Shown: positions 3,273 to 18,338 of the stretch, in pieces
Layout of the letters: every line of letters begins with the position of its first letter
How positions within the stretch are numbered: position 1 is the stretch's first letter
Source of the DNA: a virus
Virus record (IMG/VR): IMGVR_UViG_3300009440_000045
Location: 1-21,263 of that record
DNA length: 21,263 bases
Direction: 5' to 3' (one strand)
Made by a program: the position numbers and the translations under genes
The notes under the pieces: generated by a model
Database searches by the model: none
What the model saw: only the letters and a program-made list of their open reading frames with translations
What the model was told of the DNA's origin: nothing

Positions 3273-3715
3273 TGCAATTTACAACAAACATAAAAGGGGC
3301 TAAAGCTGTAGAGAAAGCTTTAATGAATGCAAGTGATAAACTCACTCGAAAAGTTATTCTAAGCGGCATGAGAGCGGCAGCCACCCCAATAGTGAAAGCT
3401 GTAAAGTCATACACACCAGTAAGTAAAAACACAAACTACGACAATCGAAAGCGTGGAGATTTAAAAAAGTCCATAGGAAAATTTACCGGTAAAAGTAAAA
3501 AGTTTGCAACCCTATACGTAGGGCCAAGAGTTAAAAACAAGTTTGCATATATGGGCTATATAGGTCACTGGATAGAGTTCGGAAATGATACCGGGTACGA
3601 TTTAGCTTTTAAAGGCCGCAGATATGTTCAAAAAGGGTACGAATCAGCGCAGGAGAAAGCCCTATCTATATTAGACGAGAAAATACTAAAAGCAGCAACT
3701 AAATTCTTAAAATGA
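3272..3715 (+). CDS. HK97 gp10-like neck / tail completion protein
   Basis: The protein has 147 residues and is rich in basic residues. GMRAAATPIVKAVKSYTPV, then GDLKKSIGKF and ATLYVGPRVKN, followed by YIGHWIEFG, form the standard pattern of HK97 gp10-family proteins, which complete the tail-proximal neck. The start overlaps the previous stop by one base and the stop overlaps the next start (ATGA at 3712-3715), so the connector cluster looks translationally coupled. Confidence 0.87.
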   Translation: MQFTTNIKGAKAVEKALMNASDKLTRKVILSGMRAAATPIVKAVKSYTPVSKNTNYDNRKRGDLKKSIGKFTGKSKKFATLYVGPRVKNKFAYMGYIGHWIEFGNDTGYDLAFKGRRYVQKGYESAQEKALSILDEKILKAATKFLK

Positions 3716-4122
3716 GCGTGATTGGCATACATATAGGAAAAGCAATTTATCACATTTTAAAGAATGACAGCTCTATTGTTTCAATGGTGGGGAACGTCAA
3801 AAATATACAGCCTTCGGCAATATATACAGACAGCCCCAAAGCAGGTATTTATTATGATATTCTAACGGTAAACAACACAAACACAAAAGGCGATCATAAG
3901 GCAACCATTACAGAGGTGTCGGTGCAAATAGAATGCTTTAAGAAATCATACGAAGATGTGATCAATTTAGGGGCTAGAGTGCAGGAACTTTTAGACAAAA
4001 AAAACGGAACATTTAACGGAGTAAACTTACAAAGTTGTGTACTAGAATCGCAATCATCAGACTTCGATGGGAATAATAAATTGTATTATTTACAACTAAC
4101 TTTCAAAACACGAATCACTTAA
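3712..4122 (+). CDS. Tail terminator protein, DUF3168-like
   Basis: The protein has 136 residues. GKAIYHILKNDSSIVSMVG at the N-terminus, PSAIYTDSPKAGIYYDIL, TEVSVQIECF and YEDVINLGARVQELLDKK match the DUF3168 / gp17-type fold of proteins that cap the tail tube and join it to the head. It lies just upstream of the major tail protein, the normal place for a tail terminator. The C-terminus (YYLQLTFKTRIT) is the usual final beta strand. Confidence 0.87.
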   Translation: MSVIGIHIGKAIYHILKNDSSIVSMVGNVKNIQPSAIYTDSPKAGIYYDILTVNNTNTKGDHKATITEVSVQIECFKKSYEDVINLGARVQELLDKKNGTFNGVNLQSCVLESQSSDFDGNNKLYYLQLTFKTRIT

Positions 4123-4133
4123 AAAACAAAAAA

Positions 4134-4562
4134 ATGGCAATAGTAAACGCAACAGACGTAATCATAACAATAAACGACACAGCAGGTACAGCACACGGAT
4201 CAGTAACAGAGAAACTACTATTTGGTACTTCTGCTTCTTTATCTGTTTCTAGAGACCTTAGAGACTCTACTAACAAAGCAAGTGCAGGATGGTCTGAATC
4301 ATTAGCAGGTCTTAAATCTTGGGAACTTTCAGGAGATGGATTTGTAGAATTTCGACTTGCTGATGCAGCTCAAAAAAACTTCAAAGAGTTGTTTCAAAAA
4401 ATGATAGCAAACGATCCTGAAGTAACTGTAAAGTTTTCTGATGGTATTACTTACTATGTTGGTAACGCTTTTATGACTTCTTTAAGCGTAGATGCAGGTG
4501 TAGAAGAAAACGCAACTTACTCAGTTTCACTTACAGGATCGGGAGCTTTAACTCAAGGATAG
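4134..4562 (+). CDS. Major tail tube protein (short paralogue)
   Basis: The protein has 142 residues, beta-rich. It contains FGTSASLSVSRDLRDSTNK (from about residue 29), GWSESLAGLKSWELSGDG, VKFSDGITYYVGNAF (from about residue 99) and SLSVDAGVEENATYSVSLTG. These are the features of the major tail protein family (TP901-1/gp17 type) that polymerises into the tail tube. Position after the tail terminator and before the chaperones agrees. The next gene is a clear paralogue with inserted modules. The start ATG is preceded by an A-rich leader with no Shine-Dalgarno. This compact copy is the more likely bulk tube subunit. Confidence 0.88.
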   Translation: MAIVNATDVIITINDTAGTAHGSVTEKLLFGTSASLSVSRDLRDSTNKASAGWSESLAGLKSWELSGDGFVEFRLADAAQKNFKELFQKMIANDPEVTVKFSDGITYYVGNAFMTSLSVDAGVEENATYSVSLTGSGALTQG

Positions 4563-4587
4563 TATTAACTTTTAAATCCATTAAATT

Positions 4588-6336
4588 ATGGCAATTCAAA
4601 ACGCATCGGATTTATTAGTCTACAAGAAAACTAGCCCTGCTAGAGCGCAGGTTACTCGGATCAAGGTTAAGAGTTCTACTCCTATTAAGGATTTTACATT
4701 AAATAATAACATAATACTTAATAATGTTACTGACGCATCAGGAGATATTTCTGATGGTGTAGTTGATGCTTTGTCGGGAATTAATACAGGTTTTTCAGTC
4801 TGCTCTAGTATTAGTGCTATTTTAACAGGTACTTATGGATATACAGCAACAGCGGTAGTAAATGACCCTTCTGATGCTTCATTTAAAAAATTCGATGTAA
4901 CCAACGGAGCAAATGGACCTGTCCCTACGCTAGAAGTATTAAGCGGTACAAACGAGTTCAAATCGGGCGCAGTCGAAATAGTTGTAATCACATCGGGTCA
5001 ATCTTTAGTTTATCAACCAATCGCTTTCAGTACATCTGCTTCGCTTGGTGTAAGTAAGGATTTACGTGATATTACTACGAAAGACTCTCAAGGATGGCAA
5101 GAGAACGCAAAGGGATTAGGTTCTTTTGAGTTAAGTACAGATGCACTATGGGATGTAAACAACGCTGTAGGAGTCGAGTCTGCTACAGAAGATTTGATTG
5201 TAGGCGATTCAGTAGATGTTAAGTTTTCCGATAGAGTTCGCAACTTAATTGATACTGAGGAGGTTTATGGGTCTAGTGAGTGGAGTGTATCTAACGTCAC
5301 CATAACTAAACACCTCCAAGACCCATTTGGTCAATTTACTGCTGCTCAATTCGATGTTGACTCTAGTGGTGGATATAGACGAAACCAATATTATCTCCCA
5401 ATAAACTTGGTTGAAAGTAAAAAAATATCTTGGTCATTATACCTTAAGGCAGTTTCGGTTTCGGCAAATTCTTGTCAATTTAGGATTCAAGGGGATAGTG
5501 CGGTACAAGCTGATTTAGACTTTACCACAAGTATAGAAAAAATTAGTGGTGATGGTACTGTCTCGTCAACAAACACGCTTATAAAAAAAGTAACAGGTTT
5601 AAGTACGACTTCGTGGACTAGAGTACAAATAACTACAGACTCAGTAATTTCAGGTACAGATTTACGTGATGTTAGAATTATAACATATCCTGGAGACTCT
5701 TTCTCAAGCCAAACCACGGCAGACAAGATAATAACCGCTTCGTGGCAAGTCGAAACAAGTACAGACGCTTCGGATTATCAAAACCCGACTGAGGTAGATT
5801 GTTACCAAGGTAAAGCGTTTGTAAATAGTGTTTCTGTAGATGCAGGAGTCGAGGACAATGCAACTTATTCTGCTTCGTTCACAGGTACTTCGGAGATATT
5901 TATTAATGGTTTAGGTCACGAGTTATTAGGTGATAATTACTTTGATGGGGTTGAAACTACAGGGGGTTTAAATAAGTTATTAATTCCAAATTGGAAATTT
6001 AGCAACGAGAATTCAAATGCTTTAGGTTATTTTCCTAGTGCTGCTAGGTTTAAGTGGGCAAGTAGTGCTGATACTTTTTTAGTTTCTTACACTGGTAGTG
6101 CAAACTTAGATGTAATGGTTGTGGGTAAAGAGTATGAATTGACTTATACAATTTCTGCTTATGTAAGTGGTGAATTAACTTTAAATTCAGCAACAAATAA
6201 CCCTACAATTCCTTTAATTGTTGGAAGTCATACAATTAGGTTTACATCTGACCAAGCTTATTTAATGATTGCAAAATCAGGTACATCAGGTGAAATTCAT
6301 ATAAGTTACATATCACTTAAAGAAGTATTCTCTTAA
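4588..6336 (+). CDS. Second, enlarged major-tail-protein paralogue with inserted modules
   Basis: The protein has 582 residues. The tube-protein core of the preceding gene recurs split into pieces: MAIQNASDLLVYKK at 1-14, FSTSASLGVSKDLRD and GWQENAKGLGSFELST at about 147-185, VKFSD near 212, then GKAFVNSVSVDAGVEDNATY near 408. Three extra blocks interrupt or extend it: about 110 residues near the N-terminus, about 190 residues (216-405) between two core strands, and a C-terminal domain (about 446-582) resembling a jelly-roll carbohydrate-binding module (WKFSNENSNALGYF, VGKEYELTYTISAY, IHISYISLKE). I infer a decorated tail-tube subunit that displays glycan-binding modules along the tail. It might instead be a minor tail protein. 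Paralogy is seen directly; binding is inferred. Confidence 0.75.
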   Translation: MAIQNASDLLVYKKTSPARAQVTRIKVKSSTPIKDFTLNNNIILNNVTDASGDISDGVVDALSGINTGFSVCSSISAILTGTYGYTATAVVNDPSDASFKKFDVTNGANGPVPTLEVLSGTNEFKSGAVEIVVITSGQSLVYQPIAFSTSASLGVSKDLRDITTKDSQGWQENAKGLGSFELSTDALWDVNNAVGVESATEDLIVGDSVDVKFSDRVRNLIDTEEVYGSSEWSVSNVTITKHLQDPFGQFTAAQFDVDSSGGYRRNQYYLPINLVESKKISWSLYLKAVSVSANSCQFRIQGDSAVQADLDFTTSIEKISGDGTVSSTNTLIKKVTGLSTTSWTRVQITTDSVISGTDLRDVRIITYPGDSFSSQTTADKIITASWQVETSTDASDYQNPTEVDCYQGKAFVNSVSVDAGVEDNATYSASFTGTSEIFINGLGHELLGDNYFDGVETTGGLNKLLIPNWKFSNENSNALGYFPSAARFKWASSADTFLVSYTGSANLDVMVVGKEYELTYTISAYVSGELTLNSATNNPTIPLIVGSHTIRFTSDQAYLMIAKSGTSGEIHISYISLKEVFS

Positions 6337-6355: not shown

Positions 6356-6667
6356 ATGAAAAAGGTAGAAATAGGCGGCCAAGAACGACCAATCAGGTTC
6401 AGTTATTTAGCTTTGAAAGACATTTGTAATAAATGCGGATTAAAGTTAAGCGAAATGAATCAGTTAGGATCGGAGATTGAACACATCGGTATTATTACAT
6501 ATTACGGACTAAAAGCAGGAGCTAAGAAGATCGGCGAACCTTTTAAGTACAAAATAACTGATATAGAAGATTGGCTTGACAACGAGGCCTTTAGTAAAAT
6601 TGGAGAAATTTTAGAATCTTTTCAATTAGACCAGCCACAAAATGACCCGCAAATTGGGGGAAAGTAG
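6356..6667 (+). CDS. Tail assembly chaperone, gpG-like
   Basis: The protein has 103 residues. A small mostly helical protein (FSYLALKDICNKCGLKLSEM, GIITYYGLKAGAKK, ITDIEDWLDNEAF) with a Gln/Asn-rich tail, lying directly before the tape measure. This is the place and size of the lambda G-type chaperone that coats the tape measure during tail assembly. Its last codons contain GGGAAAG, the same heptamer lambda uses for the G to GT frameshift, immediately before the TAG stop. The family diverges fast, so the call rests on context, the heptamer and the downstream open frame. Confidence 0.85.
   Translation: MKKVEIGGQERPIRFSYLALKDICNKCGLKLSEMNQLGSEIEHIGIITYYGLKAGAKKIGEPFKYKITDIEDWLDNEAFSKIGEILESFQLDQPQNDPQIGGK
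6658..6664 (+). promoter_or_regulatory. Programmed -1 ribosomal frameshift site GGGAAAG
   Basis: The heptamer G GGA AAG is in the correct phase for tandem -1 slippage and is followed at once by the zero-frame TAG (6665-6667). It is identical to the lambda G/GT slippery sequence. Slipping joins the 103-residue protein to the open -1 frame that continues without a stop to 7011. I see no strong hairpin just downstream; lambda is also not known to require one. Confidence 0.88.
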
Positions 6668-7011
6668 AAGAACCTATTGAATCCGATTTAATCACATTTG
6701 ACAAATTGGAAGAGATAGGGCTGGGAAAGCTAGGAATGAATCATGATGAAATGTACGATTTGACTATGCGGAGCTTTGTAAATAAACTCAAAGGTTTTAA
6801 CGATCACCAGCAGCTAAAGACTCGGACATCATGGGAGCAGACAAGAATAATCATGCACTCGATTCTAAAGCCTTACATGAATAAAAACGTAAGCCTTAAA
6901 GAGGTGCTACCTTTTGAATGGGATAGTGATATAAAGACAGCCAAACCAGTAAGTAAAAAGCATATTCAGAGCGTGATAGATCGCTATGAAAACCACAAAA
7001 AAAATAAATAG
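6664..7011 (+). CDS. GT extension of the tail assembly chaperone (made by -1 frameshift)
   Basis: From the slippery site the -1 frame reads VEEPIESDLITFDKLEEIGLG and continues to the stop before the tape measure, adding 115 residues to give a fusion of about 218 residues. The segment has no ATG before residue about 24 of the extension, which argues against independent translation; a TTG at 6706 is the only early alternative. TRTSWEQTRIIMHSILKPYM and VLPFEWDSD are typical of the T domain in Bacteroidota phage chaperones, which recruits tail tube subunits to the tape measure. The stop is directly followed by the tape measure ATG. Confidence 0.85.
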   Translation, partial: VEEPIESDLITFDKLEEIGLGKLGMNHDEMYDLTMRSFVNKLKGFNDHQQLKTRTSWEQTRIIMHSILKPYMNKNVSLKEVLPFEWDSDIKTAKPVSKKHIQSVIDRYENHKKNK

Positions 7012-8772
7012 ATGGGCTTAAAAAAAGCAACTGTAAAGCTAGGGGCGGACACAAAGGAGTTTCAAAGCAAAATGCGAAAGGCTTCCAAAACTTTCCGAAA
7101 GATGGGGAAGCAGATGAAAGACATGGGGAAGCAGATGAGTATTGGGCTGACCTTACCGCTAACAGCCTTTGCAGCGGCTTCTGTTAAAGCCTTTGATACA
7201 CAAGCCAAAGCGGAAGCCAAGCTTAGAACAGCCCTAAAAGGTAATGAAAAAGCCTTTAAAAGCTTAACAAAACAAGCCAGAGAACTCCAAAAAATTAGCT
7301 TATTTGGAGATGAGGAAACCATACAGGCGCAGTCTATGCTTGCAAGCATGGGACTAGAGGAGGATGCAATTAAAAGATTAACACCTCTAATTCAAGACAT
7401 GGCAACCGCTAAAGGCATGAACCTTACCGCAGCAGCGGATTTAGTGGCTAAGTCTGTAGGTTCTTCAACCAACGCATTAAGTAGGTACGGTATACAGATA
7501 GAGGGAGCTGTAGGAAGCACTGAAAGACTAGACAGCGCAGCCAATGCACTAAGCAAGCAATTCAAAGGACAAGCCGCAGCAGCGGCAGAAGCAGGGGCCG
7601 GAGGGATCACTCAGTTAAAAAACTCTATTGGGGATTTAATGGAAGAAATTGGGGGCTTATTAATGCCAGTTGTCAATTCCATCGCTGAGAAGGTTAAAGG
7701 CATGGTTAAAAAATTTGGAGATCTAGATAAAGGCACAAAAGTAATTATTTTAACAATTGGCACATTGGTAGCTGCATTGGGGCCAGTAATTTATACGCTT
7801 GGAATAATTGCCACGAAAATAATGGCAATAAATACTCCGATTCTTTTAGTCATCGCAGGAATTGCTGCCCTAGTTACTGCAGTAGGATATGCTGCATCAA
7901 ATTGGGATGCATTAAGCGAAAGGGCAAATTTAGTTTTTACAATTCTACAAAATGACCTTTTAGATCTGGCTAAGTTTTTCGTTAAAAATAACCCTATTAG
8001 TATCTTAATAAAAGGATATAATAAAGTAGCTAAGTTTTTCGGTAAGGAACAGCTTGGAAATCCTTTTGAAAATATTGGGAACAGCCTAGATAAATTTAAA
8101 AAAGATCTTCCCCAAGTAAAGACACAGATGAAAGGCTTTGGGGAGTCTATGCGAGAAAGTGCACTAAAAGCTGCAGGCGCATTAGGATTCCTAAATGAAC
8201 AAGTAAGTGGAGAGGCCTCAGGAGGGGCTGAAGGAGGAGGGGATGAAGGGTCTGAAGGAGGAGGTGGTGATACTGGAATAATTCAGAATATTAATAAACT
8301 AAAAGAGGCCAGCAATAGCTTTGCTATGTCCATCTCGGATAGTTTTGCTTCTGGCTTTGCAAACGCTGTGACCAGTGGAGAAGGTTTTTTAAAATCAATG
8401 AGTGAAATATTTAAGGGGATAGCCAAACAGATCGCTGCCATGATTATAAAAGCTTCAGTTTTAGCTGTATTATTTCAATTTACAGGATTAGGTAACATGC
8501 AAGCAGCGGCAGACGGAGCGACAGGATTTAAAGACCTATTGGCTTTAGGATTACAAGGAAAGGCAACCGGTGGGTCAGTTTCCAGAAATTCGCCATATAT
8601 GGTGGGAGAAAAAGGCCCGGAGATGTTTATGCCTAATTCAAGCGGAACAATAATACCAAACCATAAACTAAGCGGCGGAGCTGGTGATGCTGTTATCCCT
8701 GATGTAAGAATATCGGGAAACGACTTATTAATCGTATTTGATAGAGCAGAACGTAGAAAAAATAGAAGGTAA
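7012..8772 (+). CDS. Tape measure protein
   Basis: The protein has 586 residues, short for the family, so a rather short flexible tail is expected (tail length scales with this protein). Residues 10-45 are basic and coiled-coil-like (FRKMGKQMKDMGKQM). The middle is Ala/Gly-rich helical (LTAAADLVAKSVGSSTNAL is a common tape measure motif). Residues about 244-297 hold two hydrophobic segments (VIILTIGTLVAALGPVIYTL and ILLVIAGIAALVTAVGYAA) that may enter the host membrane on DNA ejection. A Gly/Glu-rich linker follows at about 402-422. The C-terminus carries MVGEKGPEMFMPNSSGTIIP, a recurrent tape measure ending. It follows the G/GT chaperones, as expected. Confidence 0.95.
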   Translation: MGLKKATVKLGADTKEFQSKMRKASKTFRKMGKQMKDMGKQMSIGLTLPLTAFAAASVKAFDTQAKAEAKLRTALKGNEKAFKSLTKQARELQKISLFGDEETIQAQSMLASMGLEEDAIKRLTPLIQDMATAKGMNLTAAADLVAKSVGSSTNALSRYGIQIEGAVGSTERLDSAANALSKQFKGQAAAAAEAGAGGITQLKNSIGDLMEEIGGLLMPVVNSIAEKVKGMVKKFGDLDKGTKVIILTIGTLVAALGPVIYTLGIIATKIMAINTPILLVIAGIAALVTAVGYAASNWDALSERANLVFTILQNDLLDLAKFFVKNNPISILIKGYNKVAKFFGKEQLGNPFENIGNSLDKFKKDLPQVKTQMKGFGESMRESALKAAGALGFLNEQVSGEASGGAEGGGDEGSEGGGGDTGIIQNINKLKEASNSFAMSISDSFASGFANAVTSGEGFLKSMSEIFKGIAKQIAAMIIKASVLAVLFQFTGLGNMQAAADGATGFKDLLALGLQGKATGGSVSRNSPYMVGEKGPEMFMPNSSGTIIPNHKLSGGAGDAVIPDVRISGNDLLIVFDRAERRKNRR

Positions 8773-8776
8773 AGGC

Positions 8777-11203
8777 ATGGGGTCATTCGGAAAGTATAGA
8801 GATACTATAATTAAAGGTGAAAAGGGTACTGATTGGTATGTAGAAATTCATAAAAAGGATTTCTCAGGATCTTCTACTGATATGACTTTAGCAGGTGAAG
8901 GCTTCCAAATAACTTGGAACGGACAAGGATCAACAAGAGATCGAATATTTTTAGGGTCGGAATGTGTAATAAGTCTTATGGTTCGAACCGATACTGACGA
9001 GACTGATTTATACGATATATTAGATGCAGGATTTAAAGAATACTTTATCAGAATCTATAAAAACTCTGTAAGCACATCAACAATATGGTGGTACGGATGG
9101 ATTCAACCATCATTCGATACAGTAGAAAATGCTCCATATCCTTACATTTCTCAAATTACAGCGACCGACTCATACGGATATTATCAAAAACAACTTTTTT
9201 CTACCTTTAGCAGCGAAGAACAAAAGCAAGACAACCATAGCCTTGCGAGAATATATTTAGATTTCTTACACAATACAGATTTAGCAGCAGTCAATTTAGT
9301 CGAAAACCCTGATTTCTTAGCATATAAAGGATGGAAGTTGTTTTCAAATGATGTTATTGCAAACGGATTTCTTACAATAAACGGACAAACAGGAAGCCGG
9401 AAATCAATATCTTGTGAAGGTGATACTTTAATTGTAGGCAATACTTATGAGGTTAATATATTAGTTCAATCTAGAACTTCCGGTACATTAACCGTAATTG
9501 ATGGCGGTAGTGGATCAACAATCGGGTCAATAACCTCTACAGGATTAAAGACTTTTACTTGGACTCAATCCGCAGCTAGTGGAGGTAAAGGGCTTCACCT
9601 TTACACAAACAACAATTTTGTAGGTGTATTGAGTTACGTTACAGTTCATCAAACTGAGGATTTACCTTGCCCTAGTGGTGTGAATTTTATACAAACAGCT
9701 ATAGACTGGCACACCGCAGCCGACCAAGGTGTTGTTACTGATGATGCAAGTAAATATTATATTTGTAAAGGTGCTTTCGCTACTAACACAAACTTTCCTT
9801 TTGAATATAAAGAATCAGACGCTTTTCAAGAAGCGTTAAAGATATTTAACACAGTAGGATTCTTAGCAGAAGGTAAATACAACTTTATACAACCGAATCA
9901 TTACATAGGCACTACAAACGGTGGAAATATTTTTTACCCTTACAATAGCGAAACTTATACCGCAACTTCATCAAGTCAAACAAATCTATGCGAAATAAAT
10001 CAATCGAGTAATGTTTTACTTGGTGGATCAAGTTTCACCTACGAAGCTCCGTTTAAATCAGTAAGTACTGTTTTCACATCAGTAGGTCAAGCGTTTAATT
10101 TACCTTCAGGGGTTGATTTAACTGATTTTGATTCAGATGATGATTATGTTTATGGCGGTCAAATTGTAGCTAATCAAGATTATGATCTGGATTGGTCATC
10201 CACTTATATTGAAAAAATACCTAAAAGTAATATAGATACCTTAATTGGAGCAACGCATAGCATTAACTCAATACAACAAAGCTTTCATTCTTATGTAACT
10301 ATAAAAGCGACAACCGCAACAGGAGAAAAATATTTGACTTTAGATTCAAACGATAATTTAGAATGGTCGACTAATCAAAAAAGAATAGTTTTATCTAGAG
10401 GGCTAAATAGGAATCCCGCAACAGGGCCATACAATAGTTTATTTAGCTCATCTTTTAATCAAAGCACTTGTGAAGGAGCTTATAAAAATAATGGAGTATT
10501 TGGGCCTGCCGCTTACCTAGATTACAAAAACCCTGATAATATTATACTGGTCACGCAGCCAAGTACTCAAAATGATAATAAATATACATTTAGACAGCAT
10601 TTAAAATTTAAGGTAAAAATACCACAACTGTCAAGTACAAGTTCTGTATTTGTTAAAGTTGATACTGATTTAGCAGTTTTAGCTTACAATCCGGGCGGAC
10701 AAGGTAGTACTTACTCTATAAACCCATCAAGTACAGGGGTCACAAAAGAATCAACATCTGGCGGCATAACTTTAGAGGTGGAGGAAACAACCTCACTATC
10801 CACTAACGAAGCCAGATTCACAGAGACAAGCACAAGCTCAACTTCAACAGAGAATTTTAATTTAGATGACGTTCTTATTGGTGTTACTGAGTCAGATGCA
10901 ACCTATTCAATTACAGACATAAACAACGAAGCAGTAACTGAAAATCTTTACAGAGGTAGCAATCAAGTAGAGGGAGAGGTAGCTACACAGTTATTAGTAA
11001 AAGAGTTTTTAGAAATGCAACAAAGCCCACTTCAAATATTGCAAGGAAGCATTCAAAGTGCTAATATATCCCCTTTAGATATAGTTAAGTACAAACTAAA
11101 TAGCAATGCCGCTGCAGCAAAATACTATATGTTCTTTGGTGGTACATTTAAGGCTAATAGTGAGATTATGGAAGGTGAATGGTTTAGAATAAAAGGAGAC
11201 TAA
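8777..11203 (+). CDS. Large tail-tip structural protein with an inserted carbohydrate-binding-like module
   Basis: The protein has 808 residues from the ATG at 8777, which follows the tape measure stop by four bases. A TTG at 8738 would overlap the tape measure and is less likely. The opening, YRDTIIKGEKGTDWYVEIHKKDF, and the region SLMVRTDTDETDLYDIL are typical of the big protein after the tape measure in Bacteroidota phages, probably fusing distal-tail and hub functions. Residues about 170-290 look like an inserted jelly-roll module (NLVENPDFLAYKGWKLFSND, VGNTYEVNILVQS, LHLYTNNNFVGVLSYVTV) resembling the C-terminal domain of the 582-residue tail protein. Long Ser/Thr-rich beta stretches follow. 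The tail-tip role is inferred from order; a receptor-contact role is plausible. Confidence 0.75.
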   Translation: MGSFGKYRDTIIKGEKGTDWYVEIHKKDFSGSSTDMTLAGEGFQITWNGQGSTRDRIFLGSECVISLMVRTDTDETDLYDILDAGFKEYFIRIYKNSVSTSTIWWYGWIQPSFDTVENAPYPYISQITATDSYGYYQKQLFSTFSSEEQKQDNHSLARIYLDFLHNTDLAAVNLVENPDFLAYKGWKLFSNDVIANGFLTINGQTGSRKSISCEGDTLIVGNTYEVNILVQSRTSGTLTVIDGGSGSTIGSITSTGLKTFTWTQSAASGGKGLHLYTNNNFVGVLSYVTVHQTEDLPCPSGVNFIQTAIDWHTAADQGVVTDDASKYYICKGAFATNTNFPFEYKESDAFQEALKIFNTVGFLAEGKYNFIQPNHYIGTTNGGNIFYPYNSETYTATSSSQTNLCEINQSSNVLLGGSSFTYEAPFKSVSTVFTSVGQAFNLPSGVDLTDFDSDDDYVYGGQIVANQDYDLDWSSTYIEKIPKSNIDTLIGATHSINSIQQSFHSYVTIKATTATGEKYLTLDSNDNLEWSTNQKRIVLSRGLNRNPATGPYNSLFSSSFNQSTCEGAYKNNGVFGPAAYLDYKNPDNIILVTQPSTQNDNKYTFRQHLKFKVKIPQLSSTSSVFVKVDTDLAVLAYNPGGQGSTYSINPSSTGVTKESTSGGITLEVEETTSLSTNEARFTETSTSSTSTENFNLDDVLIGVTESDATYSITDINNEAVTENLYRGSNQVEGEVATQLLVKEFLEMQQSPLQILQGSIQSANISPLDIVKYKLNSNAAAAKYYMFFGGTFKANSEIMEGEWFRIKGD

Positions 11204-15224: not shown

Positions 15225-15369
15225 GCGCAATAAATTAATGACAGTAACGAATTACGCTAAACAAATAGGCGTAAGCAAACAGGGTGTGTATAGGAGGGTT
15301 AAGGATAAAACTATTCCGCATAGATACATAGACGGTGTTCCATTTATTAAAGTAAACGAAAATAAATGA
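15214..15369 (+). CDS. Tiny helix-turn-helix protein (excisionase/MerR-like)
   Basis: The protein has 51 residues (43 from the internal ATG at 15238). VTNYAKQIGVSKQGVYRRVK is a textbook helix-turn-helix (residues 11-30), and HRYIDGVPFIKVNENK resembles the short wing of MerR/excisionase-type DNA-binding domains (compare 'I.g..fI.'). It overlaps its neighbours at both ends (11 bases upstream; ATGA with the methyltransferase). It may regulate the early operon or act as a small DNA-bending protein. With no integrase present, an excision role is unlikely. Confidence 0.75.
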   Translation: MKNKRNKLMTVTNYAKQIGVSKQGVYRRVKDKTIPHRYIDGVPFIKVNENK

Positions 15370-16010
15370 AAATACTTAATTTATATTCTTGTCTTGGTGG
15401 AAATCGGTACAAGTGGGATGAAGTAACAGATGTAGAGGTTACAGCTGTTGAATGGGATGAGGAACTCGCAAGACTGTATCAAGAGAGATTCCCAAACGAT
15501 ACGGTAATCGTAGCAGATGCACATCAGTATTTATTAGACCATTACCAAGAGTTTGATTTTATTTGGACATCCCCACCTTGCCCAACGCATAGCAGAGCCA
15601 GGTATTGGGGAATTGGTGCAAATGGGAAAAACCCTGTATACCCAGATATGAATTTATATCAAGAAATAATATTCTTACAAACTCATTTTAAAGGTAAGTT
15701 TGTTGTTGAAAATGTAATCCCATACTATGAGCCATTAATACCATCACAAAAAAGAAATAGACATCTGTATTGGACTAATTTTAACTTACCGAATATTCTT
15801 TCAGATAGGGATGCAAAAATAAGTCAAGGAACAAATGAAGTTAAAAAATTATCTGAATTTCACCAATATGATTTTAAAAAATACAAAGGAAAACAATTAA
15901 CTAATAAAATAGCAAGAAACTTAGTAGACTACCAGGCAGGGAAAACAATTTTACAAACAGCTTTAGGAATAGTAAAACAAGAAAACGTAAATCAATTAAG
16001 TATACTATAA
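15366..16010 (+). CDS. Orphan C5 cytosine-specific DNA methyltransferase (compact)
   Basis: The protein has 214 residues. Motif I is LNLYSCLGGNRYKW (SAM-binding, residues 4-17); motif IV is TSPPCPTHSRAR with the catalytic Cys72; motif VI is VVENV with Glu115; motif VIII is QKRNR (Gln128, Arg130, Arg132). A segment ARNLVDYQAGKTIL near the C-terminus may stand for motifs IX-X. Typical C5 enzymes are over 300 residues with a large target recognition domain between VIII and IX; here only about 45 residues lie there, so specificity may be relaxed or partner-dependent. No restriction enzyme is adjacent, so the likely role is protecting phage DNA or marking it. The stop and next ATG share one base. 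Confidence 0.87.
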   Translation: MKILNLYSCLGGNRYKWDEVTDVEVTAVEWDEELARLYQERFPNDTVIVADAHQYLLDHYQEFDFIWTSPPCPTHSRARYWGIGANGKNPVYPDMNLYQEIIFLQTHFKGKFVVENVIPYYEPLIPSQKRNRHLYWTNFNLPNILSDRDAKISQGTNEVKKLSEFHQYDFKKYKGKQLTNKIARNLVDYQAGKTILQTALGIVKQENVNQLSIL

Positions 16011-17804: not shown

Positions 17805-18015
17805 AGGAATCATTCCGGCCTTACCCTTTGGTAACGCTATACAAACCATTAGCGACAACATCAAAGAAGATGGCTATACACCTACAGGGCGCATCAACTA
17901 CCCTAAGCTAATAATGTACACAATCACCGGACTAATTGTACTGGGCAGGTTATTAGGTCTCATAACCAACGAAGATGTGTTGACATTAATTGCAACACTA
18001 GAAACATTAGACTGA
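17770..18015 (+). CDS. Small membrane protein, second holin-like candidate
   Basis: The protein has 81 residues. An N-terminal amphipathic part MKLSKLLKEIVKGIIPALPF with GNAIQTISDNI, then a hydrophobic segment LIMYTITGLIVLGRLLGLI (about residues 47-65) and EDVLTLIATLETLD. One membrane helix, short, phage-encoded: a holin or membrane anchor is possible. It is embedded between a nuclease and an HNH gene with overlaps at both ends (35 bases; one base), so it is not with the fibre/lysis pair at 12334. Which of the two small membrane proteins times lysis cannot be decided here. Confidence 0.6.
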   Translation: MKLSKLLKEIVKGIIPALPFGNAIQTISDNIKEDGYTPTGRINYPKLIMYTITGLIVLGRLLGLITNEDVLTLIATLETLD

Positions 18016-18338
18016 TGCCTAATATTCCAAACAAGAACAGGAATACATACAGGGTCAAGGCTCGGCAGACTTATCTAAAAGATAAAGAGAGAGCTTTCAA
18101 AGGAATCGATACAAGCAACGCAGTATTTTACAACTCCAGAACATGGAGGAAGTTAAGGCTCATGATTCTACAGCGTGACCCACTATGTAAGATATGCGAT
18201 CAGTTTGGAAGAATAGAAAGCAGCGTAGTATGTGACCATATACTACCGATTAATAAAGGGGGAGCGAAGTACAACCCGGATAATTTACAGGGATTATGTA
18301 CACGATGCCACAATGCTAAATCTGCAAAAGATAAGTAA
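18015..18338 (+). CDS. HNH endonuclease, packaging-associated
   Basis: The protein has 107 residues. FYNSRTWRKLRLMILQRD leads to the HNH fold: CKIC (58-61), CDHILPINKGG with Asp74/His75, Asn90 in NPDNLQGLC, and CTRCHN (95-100) with His99. Two CxxC pairs indicate structural zinc. HNH proteins next to small terminase genes, as in HK97, take part in cos cleavage and DNA packaging; this gene ends right before the candidate cos interval and the terminase genes, so I infer that role rather than homing. Confidence 0.93.
   Translation: MPNIPNKNRNTYRVKARQTYLKDKERAFKGIDTSNAVFYNSRTWRKLRLMILQRDPLCKICDQFGRIESSVVCDHILPINKGGAKYNPDNLQGLCTRCHNAKSAKDK

Follow-up and report, generated by a model that had tools for sequence, protein, structure and literature searches.

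A decorated tail tube paralogue with predicted carbohydrate-binding-module-like insertions in a clade of uncultured siphophages

Tandem tail tube genes with a shared core

The window analyzed here is a 21,263-nt stretch of viral DNA (positions 1 to 21,263 of IMG/VR record IMGVR_UViG_3300009440_000045), and the tail-gene features described below lie on its + strand. It carries a siphophage module in the standard order of capsid, connector genes, tail terminator, two tail tube genes designated TTP1 and TTP2, two small genes at the chaperone position, tape measure, and large tail protein. The tail terminator gene (3712–4122; PHROG 347, E 1.9e-8) lies directly upstream of the tube genes. TTP1 (4134–4562) encodes a plain tail tube protein of 142 aa, which matched Phage_tail_2 (PF06199) at E 6.8e-18 and scored above the cut-off of NCBIfam NF047353 (phage tail tube protein), and TTP2 (4588–6336) encodes a decorated paralogue of 582 aa, which matched Phage_tail_2 at E 6.5e-9; the respective bit scores of 65.4 and 36.4 both exceeded the cut-off of 23.8. 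As expected for PF06199 tubes, the two genes are placed between the tail terminator and the chaperone and tape measure genes. The open frame at 6356–6667, without firm family match, occupies the lambda G-like tail assembly chaperone position between the tube and tape measure genes, and the 586-aa tape measure protein (7012–8772) matched PHROG 991 at E 4.3e-23, among others. Just 5′ of the stop of ORF 6356–6667 lies a GGGAAAG sequence (6658–6664), and the alternative frame is open into ORF 6736–7011; this arrangement looks like a lambda G/GT-type programmed frameshift of tail chaperones.

Core segments common to TTP1 and TTP2 had been claimed in a sequence-only reading of this DNA, and the comparison upheld the claim. 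BLASTP aligned the two proteins with 44% identity over 82 aa (E ~1e-12) and 62% over 32 aa (E ~1e-9), and their first eleven residues also align; an alignment in which long gaps were cheap scored 17.6 SD over shuffled sequences, and an ordinary local alignment 14.5 SD. The full core stretch common to both proteins is TSASLSVSRDLRDSTNKASAGWSESLAGLKSWELS / TSASLGVSKDLRDITTKDSQGWQENAKGLGSFELS. In TTP2 it is distributed over three blocks: block 1 (residues 1–12, MAIQNASDLLVY; 4588–4623) matches the TTP1 N terminus, block 2 (approximately residues 141–217; 5008–5238) contains the conserved DLRDxTxKxSxGW stretch, and block 3 (approximately residues 404–438, beginning YQGKAFVNSVSVDAGVEDNATYSASFTGT; 5797–5901) again aligns to the TTP1 core. 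The near-invariant residues of the DLRDxTxKxSxG stretch are identical in TTP1 and TTP2. By topology, this stretch is the β2–β3 loop, which matters for tube growth in lambda gpV and T5 pb6 (PMC8718954). At otherwise conserved core positions, TTP1 and TTP2 differ consistently at T7/S, W63/F, G67/T, F70/L, and I114/V.

The AlphaFold2 model of TTP1, built from an alignment of 46 sequences, was modest (pLDDT 67), and its best structure matches were tail tubes, namely the Sf11 tail (Z 13.4) and the monocin tube MttP (Z 11.9, 28% identity); further matches included the 80alpha, GTA, lambda, and SPP1 tubes, with several siphophage tubes at Z 10–13. On this model, TTP1 has the tail-tube fold. The model of TTP2, built from 76 sequences, had a mean pLDDT of 83, with confident modules and a core at only ~55–65, and this core had no match of its own in the structure search; the order of its strands and helices follows that of TTP1. 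Modeling recovered the tube fold for TTP1; for TTP2, a common tube fold, as anticipated by the sequence-only reading, is suggested by the correspondence of sequence and strand order, and the ability of the TTP2 core to join a tube ring is suggested chiefly by its sequence.

Inserted and appended modules of TTP2

The TTP2 core is interrupted twice and extended once, by ~128 (residues 13–140), ~186 (218–403), and ~144 residues (439–582), so that earlier figures of about 110, 190, and 135 residues were fair estimates. Insert 1 (4624–5007) follows the first strand and is modeled as an alpha/beta domain (pLDDT ~87–96 over residues 21–130), which occurs in every TTP2. It could be assigned to no known fold by the structure search with the whole TTP2 model, in which the matches were taken up by insert 2. 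Insert 2 (5239–5796) lies in the hairpin between the strand following helix 1 and the next strand, and the extension (5902–6333) is C-terminal. The model of insert 2 matched the carbohydrate-binding modules (CBMs) CBM29 (1gwm; Z 12.3, 3.2 Å over 144 residues) and CBM22 (1h6x; Z 12.2), with CBM4 within the group at Z ~11–12 and the phage baseplate chains 9b45 and 9euf at Z 11.7. Similarly, the model of the extension matched the hyaluronan-binding module 4d0q (Z 12.3, 3.0 Å over 132 residues). Insert 2 and the extension are therefore predicted to have CBM jelly-roll β-sandwich folds and could bind carbohydrate; such jelly rolls are a common fold, and sugar binding by these modules may not occur. 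Profile searches of each insert, as had been suggested earlier, identified no Pfam or PHROG family common to the members of any module, a result with which distant CBM kinship remains compatible. A weak sequence match between insert 2 and the GTA head-spike protein Rcc01080 (E 0.023) was not relied on. Foldseek matches of whole TTP2 to Cry and Vip3 proteins and seed globulins (TM up to ~0.25 of the query) reflect shared β-sandwich modules and were set aside as uninformative on function.

As for the placement of these modules, lambda gpV and T5 pb6 have an outward-facing domain at the C terminus (PMC8718954), and YSD1 has one that is inserted (PMC7385642); by analogy, the TTP2 inserts would face outward. 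Modules of the extension type also occur outside TTP2. A segment of the large downstream tail protein (9326–9538; residues 184–254) matched the extension profile in hmmsearch (blastp E 0.02), which means that two tail proteins use the same module type, and stand-alone ORFs carry the module in L061 (5168–5995) and, in two copies, in L088 (2327–3160).

The modules diverge much faster than the core that carries them. Core identity among the window's close relatives was 83–100%, compared with 55–68% for insert 1, 48–69% for insert 2, and 30–83% for the extension; differences at fourfold sites were mostly larger in the modules too. The window and L003 have a 100% identical core, but their inserts and extension are only 64–68% identical. 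The extension of L005 was 30–35% identical to those of the others, and 30% to that of the window, despite a core identity of 97–100%. Furthermore, relatedness depended on the module compared: between the window and L007, the extension is 83% and insert 2 63% identical, whereas between L003 and L007, insert 2 is 82% and the extension 65% identical. Each module thus has a history of its own, diverging and shuffling separately from the others while the core stays nearly fixed. This is the trace that adhesin-module swapping on a constant core would leave; selection and recombination may each contribute, and the two were not separated formally. The sequence-only reading had proposed host-binding domains, in keeping with the predicted CBM-like folds of two modules and with diversification that is confined to the modules and spares the core; host binding itself is a possibility that these models suggest.

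The presence of insert 1 in every TTP2, even where CBM-like modules are missing, could also be read structurally. TTP2 might, in certain circumstances, take the place of TTP1 in most or even all rings, or the two might form rings at a fixed ratio, and insert 1 might mainly brace the ring, as the inserted domain 2 of the YSD1 tube protein can do from outside (PMC7385642). However, the divergence of insert 1 is similar to that of the CBM-like modules (55–69% identity in near relatives, against 83–100% for the core), unlike that of a packed brace, and codon usage, described below, speaks against equal abundance of TTP1 and TTP2. We regard this reading as improbable.

Distribution and origin of TTP2

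The distribution of TTP2 was examined in a set of 76 complete genes, non-redundant at 90% identity, which comprised that of the window and its IMG/VR relatives. Their lengths fell into three discrete bands without intermediates, and the bands correspond to architectures: proteins of 249–275 aa carry insert 1 alone (25 genes), those of 428–456 aa also carry insert 2 (11 genes), and those of 555–590 aa carry both inserts and the C-terminal extension (40 genes). TTP1 and TTP2 are in tandem in nearly all contigs with enough flank, a count in which overlapping loci of some contigs enter repeatedly, and the commonest spacing from the TTP1 end to the TTP2 start is 25 or 26 nt. TTP2 is absent from four loci, which have a single tube gene. 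When a tree was built from the core only, every TTP2 fell on one side of a branch opposite TTP1, with a support of 100/100. The earlier description of tandem paralogues, one plain and one decorated, accordingly stands, and a single origin of TTP2 by tube-gene duplication is the best explanation. When the tree was rooted on a TTP1 row, the first split led to the insert-1-only forms, and the CBM-bearing forms made up two supported clades. The backbone was poorly resolved, so that both gain and loss would be compatible with the tree.

Frameshifting or readthrough that would fuse TTP1 to TTP2 was ruled out: TTP2 possesses a start codon and a core of its own, and the intergenic distance of 25 or 26 nt shifts the frame between contigs. 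Among the TTP2 genes of the 428–456 aa class, an extension encoded in another frame was found only in L093 (9216–9533), where the module is out of frame with TTP2 and its first part is missing. This is apparently a recently broken copy and not programmed recoding; in the other ten contigs of this class, the next gene begins at or within ~50 nt of the stop. The broken extension of L093 would suit the view that TTP2 is a decoy, a regulator, or a degenerate paralogue that stays outside virions. Nevertheless, TTP2 is retained across lineages with strong conservation of its core and, as shown below, of its start element, and we consider this view very improbable.

No relative of TTP2 was found in the cultured-phage collection searched, and pattern scans of GTDB genomes returned no relatives of TTP1 or TTP2. 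The capsid matched only 15 cultured-phage records, the best being Cellulophaga and Roseobacter phages at ~26% identity. Because these matches are few and distant and the GTDB pattern scans were empty, a flavobacterial host is only a guess. One contig, IMGVR_UViG_3300020469_000117 (36512 bases), contributed both L076 and L123; its tail region is present twice, near both ends and 95.7% identical over 5.9 kb, and the contig is probably an assembly joining two related genomes.

Start element, abundance, and proposed role of TTP2

A nucleotide-conserved element of about 57 nt (4563–4623) straddles the TTP2 start. The 25 nt upstream of TTP2 showed a mean pairwise identity of 82% (83% over all 76 loci), whereas the corresponding stretch reached 67% at TTP1, 51% at the following gene, and 48% at the tape measure gene, and the conservation continues into the first TTP2 codons at synonymous sites; Ser7, for example, is encoded by TCG in 71 of 75 genes, although TCG makes up 6.5% of the serine codons in these genes. 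In the IMG/VR loci, the strict form of the motif preceded 84 distinct downstream genes, all of them TTP2, and in the window it occurs once, at 4563–4579. These data show a conserved cis element at the start of TTP2.

The element possibly folds into an RNA hairpin, since its inverted-repeat arms ACTxxTAAATCC (4568–4579) and GGATTTAxxAGT (4608–4619) can pair around the AUG (4588), which would then lie in the loop. The named pairs were formed in 94.9% of cells of the alignment, with four two-sided changes. Covariation is weak because the region hardly varies and relatedness was uncontrolled. RNAalifold gave no consensus structure for the start-element alignment, folding of individual sequences gave z-scores of only −0.9 to −2.3, and the hairpin is poorly kept in L034 and L036. 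Predicted structure at the start was stronger for TTP2 than for TTP1 in 71 of 74 contigs, and in most it also exceeded that at the starts of the following gene and the tape measure gene. Taken together, a hairpin is moderately supported, and it may limit TTP2 translation. In Flavobacterium, start-site structure tends to reduce initiation (PMC6847099); the host here may be a different one.

Codon usage was scored against a reference made up of capsid genes from other contigs. In 39 of 41 contigs, TTP1 was nearer than TTP2 to capsid usage; these contigs are related, and the p-value is therefore not to be taken at face value. The mean scores were 0.134 for capsid, −0.025 for TTP1, −0.155 for TTP2, −0.162 for other genes, and −0.170 for tape measure, i.e., TTP2 usage is background-like, level with the tape measure and other genes. 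Because of codon usage, an indirect sign of abundance in these related contigs, and start-site structure, TTP1 is probably the bulk subunit and TTP2 a minor component. The sequence-only reading had left open a tube of mixed composition or a capping ring, and these signs suggest a fit to both.

The main rival reading is a terminal ring, in which TTP2 would form one ring only, either head-proximal below the terminator or as a tip-proximal tube starter, with its domains making a collar or a tip adhesin ring. About six copies would fit the low-expression codon usage, the consistent TTP1/TTP2 core differences listed above could mark a distinct ring, and the gene adjoins those for the chaperone and tape measure. 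However, the two proteins do not differ in the stretch that presumably makes the ring contacts, and a conserved dose-limiting start element is less relevant for a cap placed by assembly order. We hold a terminal ring to be unlikely, though a serious contender. On balance, we lean slightly towards TTP2 as a dose-limited tube-ring subunit that carries auxiliary host adhesins.

Under this preferred reading of a dose-limited ring subunit, the tube gene was duplicated once to give TTP2, a second tail-tube subunit whose retained core would let it take a place in the hexameric tube rings. That core would bear the alpha/beta domain in all members and one or two CBM-like jelly rolls in most. TTP2 output would stay below that of TTP1, probably owing to a start codon within a conserved structured element, and TTP2 built in among TTP1 subunits would yield a tail shaft with a limited number of auxiliary, weakly host-binding modules. 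These might help the phage to stay on or move over the cell surface until the tip of the tail meets its receptor. What we infer from the genes includes the incorporation of TTP2 into virions, its external display, carbohydrate binding, a lower copy number, and translational control.

Tube decoration is already known from frameshifted or uniformly extended tube proteins. TTP1 and TTP2 would resemble the tube of SPP1, which contains a short and a long version of a single tube protein; the long version is in the minority and bears a surface-binding-like domain, with gp17.1:gp17.1* at about 3:1 in SPP1 tails (PMC6316719). There, +1 frameshifting at the 3′ end yields the long version, with a single FN3 domain added at the C terminus, whereas TTP2 is encoded by its own paralogous gene, its core is interrupted by insertions, and the predicted folds are CBM-like and not FN3. 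The major tail protein/TpeX of 936-group lactococcal phages likewise offers tube variants with a CBM-type extension and three tube-protein size groups, and one such CBM extension (TpeX) from a 936 tube protein bound host cells when fused to GFP (PMC6669499); again, its extension is C-terminal and frameshift-made, but TTP2 is a dedicated paralogue with a CBM-like module within the tube fold. The most likely account is that TTP2 works like SPP1 gp17.1* and 936 TpeX, but by way of a separate paralogue with internal insertions and not a frameshift. The tube protein of the chi-like phage YSD1 has a β-sandwich domain (domain 2) inserted in its core on the outer surface, in a loop neighboring, apparently not identical to, that used in TTP2; in contrast, YSD1 has one tube gene, with the domain on all subunits, where it braces the ring (PMC7385642).

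In Cellulophaga phage phi39:1, the tube gene is likewise followed by two small genes and the tape measure gene, and its gp18, annotated as a structural protein from MS/MS, matched the TTP1 profile at 1e-12, but it has a single tube protein and no TTP2. We know of no CBM-like insertions in the Hcp2–Hcp3 heterohexamer of Bacteroides fragilis, which belongs to type VI secretion. Judging by its entry title (PDB 9vne), that complex combines paralogous tube-fold subunits in one ring, and it serves here only as a precedent. No description of second or paralogous tail tube proteins in this arrangement was found in the open-access literature searched. Here, a whole clade of uncultured phages would assign decoration to a second tube gene, with domains inside the tube fold and in three modular states. 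The natural series of zero, one, or two CBM-like modules on one core raises the question of what tail-shaft adhesins do, and the start element is a candidate for an RNA device by which a phage controls the proportions of two subunits that can substitute for each other in the same polymer. As a speculation that we hold with considerable doubt, the ~57-nt element might be a translational operator, with the AUG enclosed in a hairpin that tube protein possibly senses, which fixes the decorated:plain ratio in place of the SPP1/936 frameshift, while the near-fixed core would provide homology arms through which adhesin modules are exchanged in the tube.

Elsewhere in the window, 15366–16010 encodes a short DNA cytosine methyltransferase-like protein (a weak match, far under cut-off), and 18015–18338 an HNH-type endonuclease-like protein, whose sole NCBIfam match was IscB, far under cut-off, and which is likely an ordinary phage HNH gene.
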